Part shown: piece after piece, positions 42,179 to 50,085 of the stretch
Numbering within the stretch: the first letter of the stretch is position 1
Layout: every line of letters starts with the position of its first letter
IMG/VR virus record: IMGVR_UViG_3300037193_000230
Coordinates: 1 to 54,428 of that record
Source of the DNA: a virus
Length of the DNA: 54,428 bases
Direction: 5' to 3' (one strand)
Program-made: the position numbers and the translations under genes
The notes under the pieces: generated by a model
What the model saw: the letters and a program-made list of their open reading frames with translations, nothing else
Database searches by the model: none
What the model was told of the DNA's origin: nothing

Positions 42179-42499
42179 TTAGGCGTTCAAATAAGCCTGT
42201 GTGATGATGTACAAACCGTCAACTCGCTTGAACCCACCACTAGGCAGCTTAAGATAATGTCCGAATTCGATACTGGCGGCTGCTTCGTCCACCAACGACA
42301 CGAACCAGTCGATGTGGCCGTACTTGACGTTTCTACGACGTTCAAGTTCGATCTTGGCGGCACCTGTATCACGATGCATCAGCAAGTAGGCCGAAGCCCT
42401 TCGAAAGATTTTCTGGGCTGCGTTCCGCACGGCCTTCTGAACCTTCTCGTCTTGAGCCAAAATGCGGTTCATCTTGTCGGCTCTCATCAAGTACACCAT
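42179..42499 (-). CDS. Neck protein (DUF5403/HK97 gp10-like)
   Basis: A 106-residue protein. A first half of basic helices, then VSLVDEAAASIEFGH and YIITQAYLNA, match the small neck proteins (DUF5403-like) between stopper and tail terminator in actinophages. It joins head to tail. Confidence 0.75.
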   Translation of the reverse strand: MVYLMRADKMNRILAQDEKVQKAVRNAAQKIFRRASAYLLMHRDTGAAKIELERRRNVKYGHIDWFVSLVDEAAASIEFGHYLKLPSGGFKRVDGLYIITQAYLNA

Positions 42500-42852
42500 T
42501 ACGAGCGCCTGATTACGTAGTCGACATGTGCAGTCCGATTGGAGCCGTTGTACCTACGGACCTTACCGACCACGTGCCACCTCATGCCCAGCCAATCGAC
42601 CTGAGCCTGTGCCCCCAGAATGAACGGGAAGCTCCGTGGCAGCCTCATTCGGTACATGTCTTCGGTTTCGTAACCTTCGTTGGTCTGCTCTGCTCGTCGC
42701 TGGGAAGTACCAGACTGGATCATGGGCTGGATCGTGGCGATACTGGTTACCCCGATGGGGCTTACGCCCTTGATGATATTCCCGTCCCGGTCGATCTGGT
42801 CTTCTTCCTGATAAATGACAACCGTTTCCCGGCCCCTGTCTAGTAGGCTCAT
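42499..42852 (-). CDS. Head-to-tail stopper
   Basis: A 117-residue beta-rich protein. LLDRGRETVVIYQEE and the C-terminal WHVVGKVRRYNGSNRTAHVDY fit stopper proteins that close the portal before the tail attaches. Overlap with the adaptor gene supports the neck cluster. Confidence 0.78.
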   Translation of the reverse strand: MSLLDRGRETVVIYQEEDQIDRDGNIIKGVSPIGVTSIATIQPMIQSGTSQRRAEQTNEGYETEDMYRMRLPRSFPFILGAQAQVDWLGMRWHVVGKVRRYNGSNRTAHVDYVIRRS

Positions 42853-43253
42853 AGCGTCACCCAGGGGTCTGGTGGGCAGTTATCGTAGTAAGGAGCCAGA
42901 TTGGTGCGAATGGTGAACACACCCGAGGTGATCCCCAGGAGTGCCCATTCACTGGCAAGGATGTCGAGTCGACCCGAAGCAACCCTGTCGTCAATCTGAT
43001 ACGAGTAGTTACCATCCGTTTCGGATCGGTACCCGTCGACGTTCTTGATCAATCGGAGAACCGTGTCGGCTTCGACCATGACCAGAATGGACTCGTTGAT
43101 CCGACCATCCGCAACCTGGGCGTCCAAGTCGGGGATCTTGTGACGGATCAGAAGCTCCACGTCGTTGAGACGGGTTTCCACGATTTCCTGTTCGCCCGCT
43201 TCGAGTGACCTACCCAGGCGGGCTTCTACGTCGGCTACTGTTGCGTAGGCCAT
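42849..43253 (-). CDS. Head-to-tail adaptor
   Basis: A 134-residue protein. YATVADVEARLGRSLEAGEQEIVETRLNDVE is the characteristic helical opening of adaptor proteins that bind below the portal ring. It overlaps the stopper gene by four bases. Confidence 0.85.
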   Translation of the reverse strand: MAYATVADVEARLGRSLEAGEQEIVETRLNDVELLIRHKIPDLDAQVADGRINESILVMVEADTVLRLIKNVDGYRSETDGNYSYQIDDRVASGRLDILASEWALLGITSGVFTIRTNLAPYYDNCPPDPWVTL

Positions 43254-43262
43254 CTCTGCTCC

Positions 43263-43484
43263 TTAGAAAGTCTCTGGCTTCAGCACCGAGCGGATCAGCG
43301 CCATGAAACCGGTCTGAAGGTCGGTACGGGCAATAGCCGCCCACCGCTTGTCTGTCTCGTCACGGTTGAAAATCTCTTCGACCTTCGTCCCTACGAGCTG
43401 GGCAAGTTCCTTCAGCTCATTGGCGATTCGGATCTCGTCTTCGGATAGTTCTCGATACCCCGTAATGGGGGCTGACTTAACCAC
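43263..43484 (-). CDS. acb2: Acb2-like anti-CBASS protein
   Basis: A 73-residue protein from GTG 43484 with GAAAGGA upstream. Residues 10-18 (YRELSEDEI) and 45-65 (Asp-x-Arg-Trp...Thr-Asp-Leu-Gln-x-Gly-Phe-Met-Ala-Leu-x-Arg) with a final Pro-x2-Phe are the signature of the Acb2/Tad1 hairpin family. Acb2 proteins form hexamers that soak up cyclic di- and tri-nucleotides, switching off CBASS and related signalling. Placement between capsid and neck genes would give high late expression. Confidence 0.8.
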   Translation of the reverse strand: MVKSAPITGYRELSEDEIRIANELKELAQLVGTKVEEIFNRDETDKRWAAIARTDLQTGFMALIRSVLKPETF

Positions 43485-43662
43485 GTGGTGTATCCTTTCG
43501 GGGACGGCCGCGCTTCTTGGGCGCAGGAGTAGGCGTTACGGGCTCTGAGACGGCTTCTGACGGACTTTCAGGCTCAGTCCGGTACTTGAACCCGGACGTG
43601 TCCCAAAGGCGCTCAGCGATCCTCTCAGACACTTCTACGAGCACCCCCGTAGGGGAGATCAT
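43477..43662 (-). CDS. Small structural-operon protein with AT-hook-like tail
   Basis: A 61-residue protein; ATG 43662 is preferred, TTG 43671 is possible. N-terminal strand and helix (GVLVEVSERIAERLWDTSGF), a Pro/Glu/Thr linker, then KKRGRPRK, the core of an AT-hook. Similar proteins lie beside capsid genes in other actinophages; function unknown. Confidence 0.7.
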   Translation of the reverse strand: MISPTGVLVEVSERIAERLWDTSGFKYRTEPESPSEAVSEPVTPTPAPKKRGRPRKDTPRG

Positions 43663-43664
43663 GG

Positions 43665-44627
43665 CTACCAATTTTCGACCAACCTTTCAATCGACTCGAC
43701 CCAACGGGCGAGTTCCGGATTTGGGTCCAATTCTGCGGACCTCTTCAGGGCCAGTCGGGAAGCCGCGTTCCAATCGGTATCGTTCAGGAGTTGTAGAATA
43801 GTAGCTTCGTACCCGTTCTTGTCGTCCCGGTCCACGAAAAGACCGAACGGACCCTGCGATTCCTTGAGACCCGGAGTGGGGTGGGCAATAACCGGGATTC
43901 CCGACGCCAACGCTTCGACTCCGGCCATACCGTAGGACTCATAGATACTCGGCATGAGAAGAATACGGGTCTTGGACCAGACGTTCTCCTTCATGTCAGG
44001 GGTGTGTTCCTGGATCTCCACGTTGGGAAGGTCCCTACGGATGATCTGCTCACCATGACCGCCTACCACGCCCAGGAATTCGACATCCGGCATGGATTCG
44101 GCCAGGCTGTAGAACAACCCGGACCCCTTGTTGGCGTTGAGGTTGACCAGAGTCACCTTGTCGCCCGGACTTGTCTTGTGCTCTTCCGGAAATACAGGAG
44201 GGTGGATCACCACAGAGTTCATGCCTGGCTTTTGGAGCTTCTTTTGAATCCATTCTGTATTGAACACCACCAACGAAGGCCCGAACCCGAGGTGGGTCTG
44301 GACACCCGCCATGTCGTTATGGCAGATGAAGACCCAGGGGATTCCCAGCTTTCGGGCAATCTGGGCTGTGTAGACCGTGTTGTCGTGGTGGGTAATGATC
44401 AGGTCGGGTCGCCAGGCTTGGATGTTCTGTCGTCCGTAGACCACATTGGTTGTGAGGACATCCACATCTTCGTAGGTGTAGCTCATAGGGGCTTCCGGGA
44501 GTACCGTAGCCACCACGGCCACATCGTGACCCGCCTTCTGAAGGGCCTTGACCATTGCATGGAGCATGGTTTCCGACCCGGCATTACGATAAGGCACGTA
44601 AAAGTGCACGAACACTGCGATTCTCAT
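43665..44627 (-). CDS. Glycosyltransferase, GT4-like
   Basis: A 320-residue GT-B enzyme with AAGGAG. N-terminal HFYVPYRNAGSETMLHAMVKAL with the Gly-Gly-type acceptor loop replaced by Asn-Ala-Gly, and the C-terminal nucleotide-sugar motif PSIYESYGMAGVEALASGIPVIA, with the Glu-x7-Glu pair. It lies just after the capsid gene, so it may glycosylate capsid or tail proteins. Substrate sugar unknown. Confidence 0.88.
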   Translation of the reverse strand: MRIAVFVHFYVPYRNAGSETMLHAMVKALQKAGHDVAVVATVLPEAPMSYTYEDVDVLTTNVVYGRQNIQAWRPDLIITHHDNTVYTAQIARKLGIPWVFICHNDMAGVQTHLGFGPSLVVFNTEWIQKKLQKPGMNSVVIHPPVFPEEHKTSPGDKVTLVNLNANKGSGLFYSLAESMPDVEFLGVVGGHGEQIIRRDLPNVEIQEHTPDMKENVWSKTRILLMPSIYESYGMAGVEALASGIPVIAHPTPGLKESQGPFGLFVDRDDKNGYEATILQLLNDTDWNAASRLALKRSAELDPNPELARWVESIERLVENW

Positions 44628-44710: not shown

Positions 44711-45709
44711 TTAGCTACCCGAAGGGTTTGTCAGCTTCACAAACGCATCCAGGTCACCAACCACCCAGCCGAATGTTACTTCGACCAGGAGCGCAACCTG
44801 GTTCGTCTGCCACATGGAAACGGTGTTTACTCCGTCAGTCAGTGTGGCCTGGTCGCTGATCTTGTAGCGGATCTCGTCCGCGAATCCCCAACGAAGCTGC
44901 GAGAAGTCTCCACCGATGATTCGAGTCGGAGTAGCCGTAGCCGCTCCGAGGTCACCACGTACGGCACGGCCGTAGTATGACGGGAATCCGAGGATGTTAC
45001 CCACAGTGCCATTGAAGTTGATACCGGCCGGGTTGACCAGGTTACCATTCGCGTCACGCTCCGCACCCTCACGGATCAGTCGAGCACGGAAACGAGGGTC
45101 AACCGCCCAACCGTCGAAGTCGAACTCACCAGCCGACGCCATTTCGTACGCCGTGATTAGCTCGTCATAAACGGAGTTGGTTGTGTCCGCGTCCATGTCG
45201 ACCACGTTGGCCGTGTTGTTCAGAACGTTGTCTGTGTCGATACCCTGAAGAGCCGCCCCTGTGTCAGGACGCTTTCCGTGGAATACAGCCAGGTCGATAC
45301 CGCGACCAATCGCGAAAGCCAGGTCGTTCTGGAGCTTGGTGTAGAAACCCTGTGGGTTGGTACGCGCAAATTCCTCGGACACGGTCACGATAGTGGCCAG
45401 CTTGATCGGGCTGAACGAACGGCTGTCCCACGCAGTACCGCTCAGCGGCTTGAGGCCACCTTCACGGAGAGCGTTGGTAGTACCAGTACCTACCTGGCCT
45501 ACCTCAGGACGACGAGTAGTCACCGGAATGACAGTCTCACCATAAGAAACCGGGATTCGCTCACCCAGCCGAAGAACCAGGGATGTCTCCTGGGCCTTCT
45601 CGAAAATCGGGCCTACGATCGTCTTGGGCAGTAGATCGTCAGGCACATACGCAAGTCGCCCCTGGTGGTAATCAGCGGTATTCGGGGCGAGTTCGTTAAT
45701 CATTGCCAT
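44711..45709 (-). CDS. Major capsid protein
   Basis: A 332-residue HK97-fold capsid protein. LLPKTIVGPIFEKAQETSLVLRLG, then VPVTTRRPEVGQVGTG and SPIKLATIVTVSEEFART are the classical N-terminal and E-loop/P-domain landmarks. No N-terminal delta domain, consistent with the separate scaffold gene upstream. AAGGAAA precedes the ATG. Confidence 0.94.
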   Translation of the reverse strand: MAMINELAPNTADYHQGRLAYVPDDLLPKTIVGPIFEKAQETSLVLRLGERIPVSYGETVIPVTTRRPEVGQVGTGTTNALREGGLKPLSGTAWDSRSFSPIKLATIVTVSEEFARTNPQGFYTKLQNDLAFAIGRGIDLAVFHGKRPDTGAALQGIDTDNVLNNTANVVDMDADTTNSVYDELITAYEMASAGEFDFDGWAVDPRFRARLIREGAERDANGNLVNPAGINFNGTVGNILGFPSYYGRAVRGDLGAATATPTRIIGGDFSQLRWGFADEIRYKISDQATLTDGVNTVSMWQTNQVALLVEVTFGWVVGDLDAFVKLTNPSGS

Positions 45710-47034: not shown

Positions 47035-48409
47035 TTGTCGCCCCTGCCTGCGTAGTTGTTGTAGGCTGAACCGGTGGGTTCAGAATCGCGTTGAGCTGAG
47101 AAGTGGGGTCTGACTTGTCCCATTCCTGCATCTGCTTGCGCTGAACGTCGGTGTAGCCCATTTCGATTCGGGCCTGCTCGGTCGGGATTACTCCGTCAGC
47201 ATGGAGCTTGACAACCCCGTCCGCCTTTGAGGCGAATGTAGGTGTCGACGGATCGGCCCATACGGATTCAAGCCGGTACATATTGGTAGGAATAGAGCCG
47301 TCCATGACCAGTACGCCCAGACGCATCATTTCTTCCCAACCACCACCGAATACACGGGACTTTCGTTCGGCCTTCTTGACCATACGAGATTCCGATGACT
47401 TGATGGCTTCGGCGGAAGCCGGGTTCTCCGAAGAGAACGAAAGATACTGTGGGGGTAGACCGGTATATGAGGCTACCTGCTTGGCCAGTTCCTGTAGGGC
47501 TTCGGTGAAGTTCCTCAGGTCGGCCGCAGAGAACTGGTACGCCTTGACCTGGTCGCTTTCGAAGGCCAGCATTCGTGCCATGTAGGCATCCCAAACGGCC
47601 CCGGGATCTGCCGGATTGGCCGCGAACTCACTTTCGGCGACACCCATCAGGATGCGCTGAGGAACCGCCATAAGCTCTGAGGCTGTCTGAAGGTTCATGA
47701 GGATGCGGGAAGCCGCGTCGGTGGCACTTCGGATCTCCTGGGTGATCTCAGACCGCCCAAAACGCTCGCTCAGCCTCTCCCGGTTGACCAGGAGGGCAAC
47801 AGGTACTCGACCCAGCTCGTGCTCGATCTTGTCGTCTACACGCCACTGTGCGTACGGACCGCCACGGGCCAGGAAGACTGTCTCGTCGGGTAGGAACAGG
47901 GTGGCCCTGTCCTCCTGAGGAAACATGGGGTGTCGATAGAAGCGCAAAGCCGACTTGGGCTTTCCTGTCCGGAAATCCAGATCCGCAATGAAGTCGAACG
48001 GCGACTCCACGCTGAAAATAGGGGTTTCCGGATCGTCCCCGGCGTCTTCGTCGGGTGCGGCCACGGTAACGTAGGCCACGCCATGGATCATGGCTTCGAG
48101 GTGGCCCATTCCGGAGGAGATATCCATCCGGTTGGTCTGCCACCACTTACGAAGTCGTTCGTCTCCTTCGGCTCCGTCTGCTTCCCGGAAGTCCTGAAGG
48201 TCCAAACGCTCTTCCAGGGAATCCAGGTACATCCGGGGCCAACCGATGCTGGCTGTGAGGAAACGGAGTTCGGGTGGGGTGCTCAAGCCCAGTGCCTTCA
48301 GACGGAATTCGGACTCGTAGTAGGAGAGATTGTTCTCCAGAGTGCCCTTCATGCCGGTCATCTTGTTTGCGAGATCATTTACTACTGTCTCGTACTTGGT
48401 TTCTGCCAT
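47000..48409 (-). CDS. Portal protein
   Basis: A 469-residue SPP1 gp6-type portal. Landmarks: YYESEFRLKALGLSTPPELR, IGWPRMYLDSLEERL, GHGVAYVTV-type strand, and TGLPPQYLSFSSENPASAEAIKSSESRMV near residue 320. It forms the dodecameric DNA channel. Gene overlaps terminase stop. Confidence 0.93.
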   Translation of the reverse strand: MAETKYETVVNDLANKMTGMKGTLENNLSYYESEFRLKALGLSTPPELRFLTASIGWPRMYLDSLEERLDLQDFREADGAEGDERLRKWWQTNRMDISSGMGHLEAMIHGVAYVTVAAPDEDAGDDPETPIFSVESPFDFIADLDFRTGKPKSALRFYRHPMFPQEDRATLFLPDETVFLARGGPYAQWRVDDKIEHELGRVPVALLVNRERLSERFGRSEITQEIRSATDAASRILMNLQTASELMAVPQRILMGVAESEFAANPADPGAVWDAYMARMLAFESDQVKAYQFSAADLRNFTEALQELAKQVASYTGLPPQYLSFSSENPASAEAIKSSESRMVKKAERKSRVFGGGWEEMMRLGVLVMDGSIPTNMYRLESVWADPSTPTFASKADGVVKLHADGVIPTEQARIEMGYTDVQRKQMQEWDKSDPTSQLNAILNPPVQPTTTTQAGATSGTRNVRRPTG

Positions 48410-50085
48410 TACTTGAACACCATCACCTTCTTGGACTTGTTGTTCTTGGACATGACGTATTCCTGCCTCGCGCCAAACGCAAGTACAGCGCAGACAGCAG
48501 CGTCAATCTTCCTAGAGCTGTCCTTGGTGGCCTTACTGATAGAAATTCCGTAGTTGTTAGGACGCCTTACGGCATTCATGATGTGGGTCCGGAGAACCTG
48601 AGACCCGTCATGGACCAGACTGTTTTCGAAAACAGCGTCCTGGAACCGCTCGCAGTCCAACGTGAAGTTCTTGATGTTGGACCTCATGTCATACGCGATC
48701 GGGTGCTTCGCGGTGGCCTTCTGCTTCAGCTTCTTGCCGTACTTGGCTCCCCACTGGTCCACATACGCTTCGAATTCTCGTACGTCGGACCTGAAGGCCA
48801 CAACGTCGTATGTGTTGAATGCCCATTCAACCGTGTTGTCGACATCCTCACGGGGAACTTCGTCCCCGTACTTGGCGGGATTCCAGACCTTGATCGGGAA
48901 AATAGCCGCGTCTTCTACTCGGCAAGCCACCAGGGCTGTCCAGTCGTTGGACTTGGAACCGTCGAAGCCCAGTGTGATACGATCTCCCTTGGCCAGAGGA
49001 GTCAAACCCGGGTCCATGCACTTGTCCCACTCGCGTGGGGAGATCCAGGCATCTTCGGCCGCGTTGATCTGGTTGAGGAACTTACGACGGGATTCGGTAA
49101 CATCGTTCTTGACATCCAGAATGGATTCCAGAATGGTTTCGACATCCAACCACTCGGCATCGCCACGGGCTACAATGAGCCCCTGACGAAGCTTTTCGAT
49201 GGCGGCTTCGTAAGCTTCCGGATCTTCTGTGAGATCGGCAATCTCGCCCACAGGCGTGTCTGCGGGGGCTTCTAGGGCGTCGTACAGGAACTTGTTGTCC
49301 ACAGCCTGACCGGACTGCACAGCCTGATAAGCGTCCCAGTCGCGCTCAGCGTCGGATTCTTCACCCGGGCGGTGGGCGTTGCAGATGGACAGCGAACGAC
49401 AGGTGGCATAAGCACCCTTGGTCACGTTACCCTGGATGACGTTGGACATATCAAGTCCGGAGTTAGCTTCCACCCACCACTGCGTCTCATTCTTGATGAC
49501 GAAGGTAGGCCGCTTGCCCTCAAGAGCCAGAGGAGAAGACGTAACCGCTTCGATCATTCCACCCGCCTTGGTGTAAATGATCGTCTTGTGAACTTCCATG
49601 CCGAATTCGTCGCGCATCTTCTTGGACGCCATGGCAGGAAAAAGTGTGAATGTGTTGCGGGTCTGGTCCTGAGACACAGCCGCGATCTGAACCCAGGCAG
49701 ACGCCTTGGGCTTGCCTACCGGGTTACCCTCTTCGTCCCAATGGGAGAACTGAACAGGTCCACAGAGTTCGGCCAGAGCCATTGCGGCTGCAAGCGGGTC
49801 CTTACCCCAGCCCTTGAGCCTGCGCAAAAGGCCGTTGCGGTACAGGAATCGTCCGGAATAAGGGTCTACGGCGTACCACCACAAAAGGAAACGGTACTGC
49901 TCATCGGTAACCAGAAACGGCTCCCCCGCCCGAGGCCCAGAAGGCTGAATGACATACTTGTACATCCAGTTGACAATCTGGTCCCCCAGTGTCTTCTCGG
50001 GCAGATAAAACCCACCCGACTTCAATCTCTGCCAGGTTGGGCCGATGATGTGGCTCGGTGAAGGGAGCAGATCATCTTCGTTCAT
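48409..50085 (-). CDS. Terminase large subunit
   Basis: A 558-residue packaging motor. The ATPase domain has a diverged Walker A RRLKGWGKD (88-96) and a Walker B-like FVIKNET, with Asn in place of the usual Asp. The nuclease domain begins at GFDGSKSNDWTAL with its first Asp and has a KIDAAVCAVLA end. AAGGAG precedes the ATG. Small terminase lies 3.3 kb upstream, separated by lysin and tRNAs. Confidence 0.92.
   Translation of the reverse strand: MNEDDLLPSPSHIIGPTWQRLKSGGFYLPEKTLGDQIVNWMYKYVIQPSGPRAGEPFLVTDEQYRFLLWWYAVDPYSGRFLYRNGLLRRLKGWGKDPLAAAMALAELCGPVQFSHWDEEGNPVGKPKASAWVQIAAVSQDQTRNTFTLFPAMASKKMRDEFGMEVHKTIIYTKAGGMIEAVTSSPLALEGKRPTFVIKNETQWWVEANSGLDMSNVIQGNVTKGAYATCRSLSICNAHRPGEESDAERDWDAYQAVQSGQAVDNKFLYDALEAPADTPVGEIADLTEDPEAYEAAIEKLRQGLIVARGDAEWLDVETILESILDVKNDVTESRRKFLNQINAAEDAWISPREWDKCMDPGLTPLAKGDRITLGFDGSKSNDWTALVACRVEDAAIFPIKVWNPAKYGDEVPREDVDNTVEWAFNTYDVVAFRSDVREFEAYVDQWGAKYGKKLKQKATAKHPIAYDMRSNIKNFTLDCERFQDAVFENSLVHDGSQVLRTHIMNAVRRPNNYGISISKATKDSSRKIDAAVCAVLAFGARQEYVMSKNNKSKKVMVFK

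Follow-up and report, generated by a model that had tools for sequence, protein, structure and literature searches.

What a putative cyclic-nucleotide sponge does among the genes that build a phage head is the question raised by the window, by which is meant all 54,428 nt of IMG/VR record IMGVR_UViG_3300037193_000230. The original prediction placed an Acb2-like gene here, within the head-tail operon. Inspection of the minus strand reveals an open reading frame of 73 amino acids with a GTG start at positions 43263-43484, the full translation of which is MVKSAPITGYRELSEDEIRIANELKELAQLVGTKVEEIFNRDETDKRWAAIARTDLQTGFMALIRSVLKPETF. The sequence signature from which family membership had been proposed is present in this protein, with GYREL at residues 9-13, DKRW (DxRW) at 45-48, TDLQTGFMALIR at 54-65, and PETF at 70-73. 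The gene and its annotated surroundings are as follows.

48409-50085, minus strand: TerL
44711-45709, minus strand: major capsid protein (MCP; phrog_10, E 7e-57; 70% identity to cluster A mycobacteriophages)
43665-44627, minus strand: GT4-type glycosyltransferase (PF13692, 50.5 bits; phrog_26352, E 6.5e-93)
43477-43671, minus strand: DUF7302 gene (PF23976, 27.7 bits; phrog_748 head-tail connector, E 0.001)
43493-43498, minus strand: Shine-Dalgarno-like AAAGGA, 8 bases before the Acb2 GTG (from sequence)
43263-43484, minus strand: Acb2-type hairpin protein, 73 aa, GTG start, TAA stop (PF24729, PDB Acb2 matches, fold)
42849-43253, minus strand: head-tail adaptor Ad1 (Phage_Gp19; PF09355; phrog_137, E 1e-34), next downstream of Acb2
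42499-42852, minus strand: head closure Hc1, or stopper (phrog_320, E 3e-41)
42179-42499, minus strand: neck gene

An 8-nt overlap joins the Acb2 start to the TAA end of DUF7302, the gene before it, and translation of the two is therefore probably coupled. Comparison of the window gene with eight relatives gave dN/dS values of ∼0.12-0.21, as obtained from a short gene with dS near saturation; acb2 is conserved at the protein level and is under purifying selection.

The order on the minus strand is TerL, portal, protease, scaffold, MCP, GT4 glycosyltransferase, DUF7302, Acb2, adaptor, stopper, neck, tail terminator, and major tail protein. Placement between capsid and neck genes, as had been proposed, was borne out, with the MCP gene on one side and the adaptor, stopper, and neck genes on the other; two genes, encoding the glycosyltransferase and DUF7302, separate acb2 from the capsid gene. 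Given the tightness of this gene order, acb2 is likely to be co-transcribed with the capsid genes. Candidate promoters and terminators were no more frequent in a scan than in shuffled sequences, a result that is neutral on the existence of a single operon. An actinobacterial host is likely because the MCP is 70% identical to those of cluster A mycobacteriophages (“cluster A” being the usual label for these Fromanvirus phages) and because most matches were to actinobacterial phages. Bacterial genome contigs contained no relative of either the window Acb2 or the capsid protein, and so no prophage host was identified. The glycosyltransferase gene lies between the capsid gene and DUF7302 clade-wide, and contig L209 carries a related glycosyltransferase (49%) in the same interval without Acb2. 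It thus seems to be an accessory gene in its own right and may serve in glycosylation of the virion.

Family membership was assessed by profile and sequence searches. The window protein matched PF24729 (Acb2_Tad1_hairpin) in hmmscan with an E value of 6.4e-14 and 52.3 bits, well above the curated cut-off of 27 bits; the corresponding scores for PaMx33 Acb2, T4 Vs.4, and Xandras gp101 were 66.1, 71.4, and 59.1 bits, respectively. A phmmer search returned the solved Acb2 of phage PaP2, “p26” (8ixz and 8h2j), at E 5e-11, and a profile built from 51 relatives recovered 8ixz/8h2j at 3e-24 and T4 Vs.4 (7uq2) at 5.5e-7. The signature is accordingly no chance match, and assignment of the gene to the Acb2 family is solid. 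A second anti-CBASS gene was also looked for, and a profile search over the whole length of the window matched PF24729 once. No PADLOC or NCBIfam model matched the protein, which is uninformative on membership, and PF10469, chosen to represent the 2H fold found in Acb1, had no match in the window, a weak test because this profile does not model Acb1 itself. Earlier annotations of Acb2 in actinophages exist, namely Xandras gp101 in cluster E (PMC11953737) and Statler gp57 in cluster EG, named by its authors (PMC13348362); the present gene is another, with a position in the head operon.

An AlphaFold model of the monomer (mean pLDDT 89.8) contained two long antiparallel helices, spanning residues 15-39 and 46-68, like those of solved Acb2. 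When this model was compared with the PDB using Foldseek, the sole matches at E ≤ 0.001 were four Acb2 chains from 8h2x/8h2j; the next was T4 Vs.4 with cGAMP (7uq2), at E 0.02-0.03. TM-scores were moderate (0.57-0.70 on the query). Although the C-terminal hairpin of Tad1 is shared with the window protein, as the Pfam domain name reflects (PMC12043709), Tad1 also has an N-terminal antiparallel β-sheet domain, for which 73 residues leave no room. The model contains zero strands, and the open frame reaches just 90 amino acids when extended upstream of the GTG. Tad1 was rejected as an identity for these reasons. Membership of the joint Acb2/Tad1 hairpin family, as first proposed, was clearly upheld; the architecture within it is Acb2-like, a hairpin alone, and not Tad1-like, no N-terminal β domain being encoded.

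The window protein was compared with characterized proteins. The Acb2 proteins of Pseudomonas phages PaP2 and PaMx33 (8h2j and 8ixz) share with the window protein the motifs GYRxLS and RWxAIxxTDxQTGxMAxIR as well as the C-terminal PxxF, at 38% identity over 92% of the protein. T4 Vs.4/Acb2 (7uq2) also belongs to PF24729 and retains equivalents of Y8 and K23 but has a longer hairpin and only ∼29% identity to the window protein, consistent with a broad family. Across the 51 relatives, G9, Y10, L13, E17, N22, R47, T54, Q57, M61, R65, and P70 (window numbering) were invariant, and K25 and F73 almost so. Alignment equates window Y10, N22, K25, R47, T54, R65, and P70 with PaMx33 Y11, N23, K26, R67, T74, R85, and P90, and also T4 Y8 with PaMx33 Y11 and window Y10. 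The tyrosine of the dinucleotide pocket is thereby kept, and in T4 Acb2 the substitution Y8A disrupts cyclic dinucleotide binding (PMC12657218). The ligand-stacking F82 of T4 Acb2 (PMC12657218) is replaced by L68 in the window protein and by A88 in PaMx33. Since PaMx33 has a proven Acb2, an aromatic residue at this position is not a family-wide feature, and its absence does not exclude membership.

A structural difference concerns the hairpin tip. PaMx33 Acb2 has 93 residues, ∼20 of them additional at the tip, whereas the window protein has 73; the insert would fall between window residues 42 and 43. Most of the relatives found also have no insert, and the short form is therefore ordinary in the family. 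With the insert of the solved PaP2/PaMx33 proteins missing, ligand range or oligomeric state may differ from theirs.

Occupancy of the acb2 slot was compared across 25 distinct contigs of the window's clade with both MCP and adaptor genes (the window included); some are near-duplicates, and the set does not represent 25 independent events. Acb2 was present in this slot in 24 of the 25, intact in every case, the sole exception being L042 (IMGVR_UViG_3300013096_000002). The MCP-adaptor interval of 26 more distantly related contigs, in which gene order is unchanged, yielded no Acb2, and four records of this distant group, searched whole, contained no family member. Head operons of the related cluster A mycobacteriophages have neither the glycosyltransferase nor Acb2. 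That of Atkinbua (cluster A) runs from MCP through one small gene to the adaptor, and a search of the whole Atkinbua record found no PF24729 protein.

L042 is a near-identical counterpart of carrier L002, with 96.7% identity over flanks of 5.0 and 3.9 kb (8.9 kb total) and MCP, adaptor, stopper, and tail terminator proteins 98-100% identical. Relative to L002, precisely the acb2 gene is missing (L042:4803-5010), and the alignments on its two sides share 5 bases, CTAAG, which form a 5-bp repeat flanking acb2. An apparent remnant of the acb2 start in L042 is uninformative because the same bases encode the end of DUF7302. Given the nested position of L042, loss of acb2 in this contig is more likely than independent gains elsewhere.

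A distinct, VGNWVDIVLDDP-like type of Acb2, here called type B, was found in seven contigs (L022, L024, L027, L030, L031, L032, and L037). These sequences formed one fully supported group in the Acb2 tree and were scattered in the MCP tree. Both the MCP data (AU p 4.7e-6) and those for the adaptor (p 0.005) rejected a single type-B clade; when the tests were reversed and run on the Acb2 alignment, which is short, p was 0.04 and 0.02. All of these values are optimistic because the groups were chosen after the trees had been seen. That the same Acb2 type sits in different head-gene lineages indicates allele exchange in the slot. Because L042 is without exactly acb2 and trees of the head genes disagree with that of Acb2, acb2 is an exchangeable accessory gene and no required part of the virion. 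Loss or swapping in the slot is as expected for a counter-defence gene rather than for an essential particle part.

One further difference was observed in L042, in which MCP residues 11-14 (gene at L042:2763-3758) read SSTN as opposed to TTND in carriers L002, L003, L004, and L006. The difference recalls published capsid escape mutants of phage deleted for acb2 (PMC10419184), but L172, not assigned as carrier or non-carrier, also has SSTN and the patch varies in other relatives too, and so no conclusion is drawn from it.

Computation establishes that the gene is real, that its product belongs to the Acb2 family, has the predicted fold of that family, and retains the pocket residue, and that it behaves as an accessory gene, as seen in clean absence and allele exchange. 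Homology with solved relatives, which are hexamers bearing three dinucleotide and two trinucleotide sites, suggests oligomer formation, ligand binding, and CBASS inhibition, and homology together with the conserved pocket residue points to cyclic-nucleotide sequestration. In the reading that we regard as highly probable, the window gene encodes a short Acb2 whose two-helix hairpin probably assembles into an oligomer that would sequester, without degrading, the cyclic di- and/or trinucleotide alarm signals of CBASS-type defences, such that the CBASS effector would stay off. Lying in the late head operon, after the coupled DUF7302 gene and before the adaptor gene, acb2 would probably be expressed alongside the capsid proteins, and late expression timed with CBASS, as originally suggested, is plausible.

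A same-fold sponge might instead act mainly on another signal, such as the gcADPR of Thoeris or the cA3 of type III CRISPR, and not on CBASS dinucleotides. The ligand set of the family is wide and Tad1 has the same hairpin (PMC12043709), and specificity could be altered by a shorter hairpin and by L68 at the position of F82. However, gcADPR binding by Tad1 uses loops of the N-terminal β domain (PMC12043709) that are absent from the window protein, and the window protein retains the tyrosine on which dinucleotide binding by T4 Acb2 depends, making this reading improbable. That the gene is a degenerate or non-expressed passenger is extremely unlikely: it is short and missing in one close relative, but it is intact in 24 contigs, has a low dN/dS, and is preceded by a ribosome-binding site with a coupled start.

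Recruitment of the hairpin to the head-tail connector, where a small protein of this kind would serve in structure or assembly and no longer bind signals, would account for a slot fixed across the clade between DUF7302 (itself a weak connector match) and the adaptor, and Acb2 relatives elsewhere often adjoin portal, protease, or scaffold genes. This reading was rejected, and we consider it very unlikely, in view of the natural absence of acb2 from L042 with all head genes intact and of the heads built without Acb2 by cluster A relatives. Exchange of Acb2 sequence types independently of the head genes and the invariance of the pocket tyrosine also argue against it.

With sequestration of CBASS signals as the preferred function, the question of position can be approached through the report that acb2-deleted phages escape CBASS via mutations in the capsid gene (review, PMC10419184), which might hypothetically be a reason for making the sponge together with the capsid. 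Conversely, Panoptes is triggered by Acb2 (PMC12657218), and one hypothesis is that Panoptes underlies the loss of acb2 in L042. A broader and rather doubtful extension would be that the MCP-adaptor interval is an anti-defence slot in the capsid operon, in which sponge dose is tied to synthesis of the capsid implicated in CBASS escape, opposing pressures from CBASS (keep) and Panoptes-type systems (lose) turn over the sponge or its allele, and the glycosyltransferase is a second cargo. The proposed conflict becomes testable on natural sequences, as a natural near-isogenic phage pair with and without acb2, together with swapped alleles in one slot, provides unusually clear evidence of natural presence or absence and of allele exchange. 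With these observations, the known settings of Acb2 come to include the capsid operon of uncultured phages related to the best studied mycobacteriophages, and there is support for interpreting comparable small genes of head operons as counter-defence genes as opposed to “hypothetical structural proteins.”

The genomic location of acb2 differs among phages. In PaMx33 the gene closes the replication region, close to genes for a MazG-like protein, primase, and DNA polymerase, and in T4 it lies among vs/regB/tk genes, in both cases outside the structural operon and in contrast to the head-operon gene of the window; the Acb2 relatives of MQM1 and Strzyga are found among replication or nucleotide-metabolism genes. 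In Thiohalocapsa phage MD04, by comparison, a relative lies between portal and scaffold. Among 18 other viral contigs, picked for a large gene adjoining an Acb2 relative and biased by that choice, the large neighbor was a head, packaging, or tail gene in 10, a replication gene in 5, and a transposase gene in 1, with no assignment in 2. Together with MD04, these 10 contigs indicate that placement in the head region is a recurrent one for the family, of which the window phage is not the only example. Xandras gp101 has only ∼9% identity to the window protein by alignment despite its PF24729 score of 59 bits, and its gene lies in the right-arm DNA-metabolism region rather than in a head operon. 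Encoded at L103:12262-12459, it is a very divergent PF24729 member that is listed as “hypothetical protein” in its own record.
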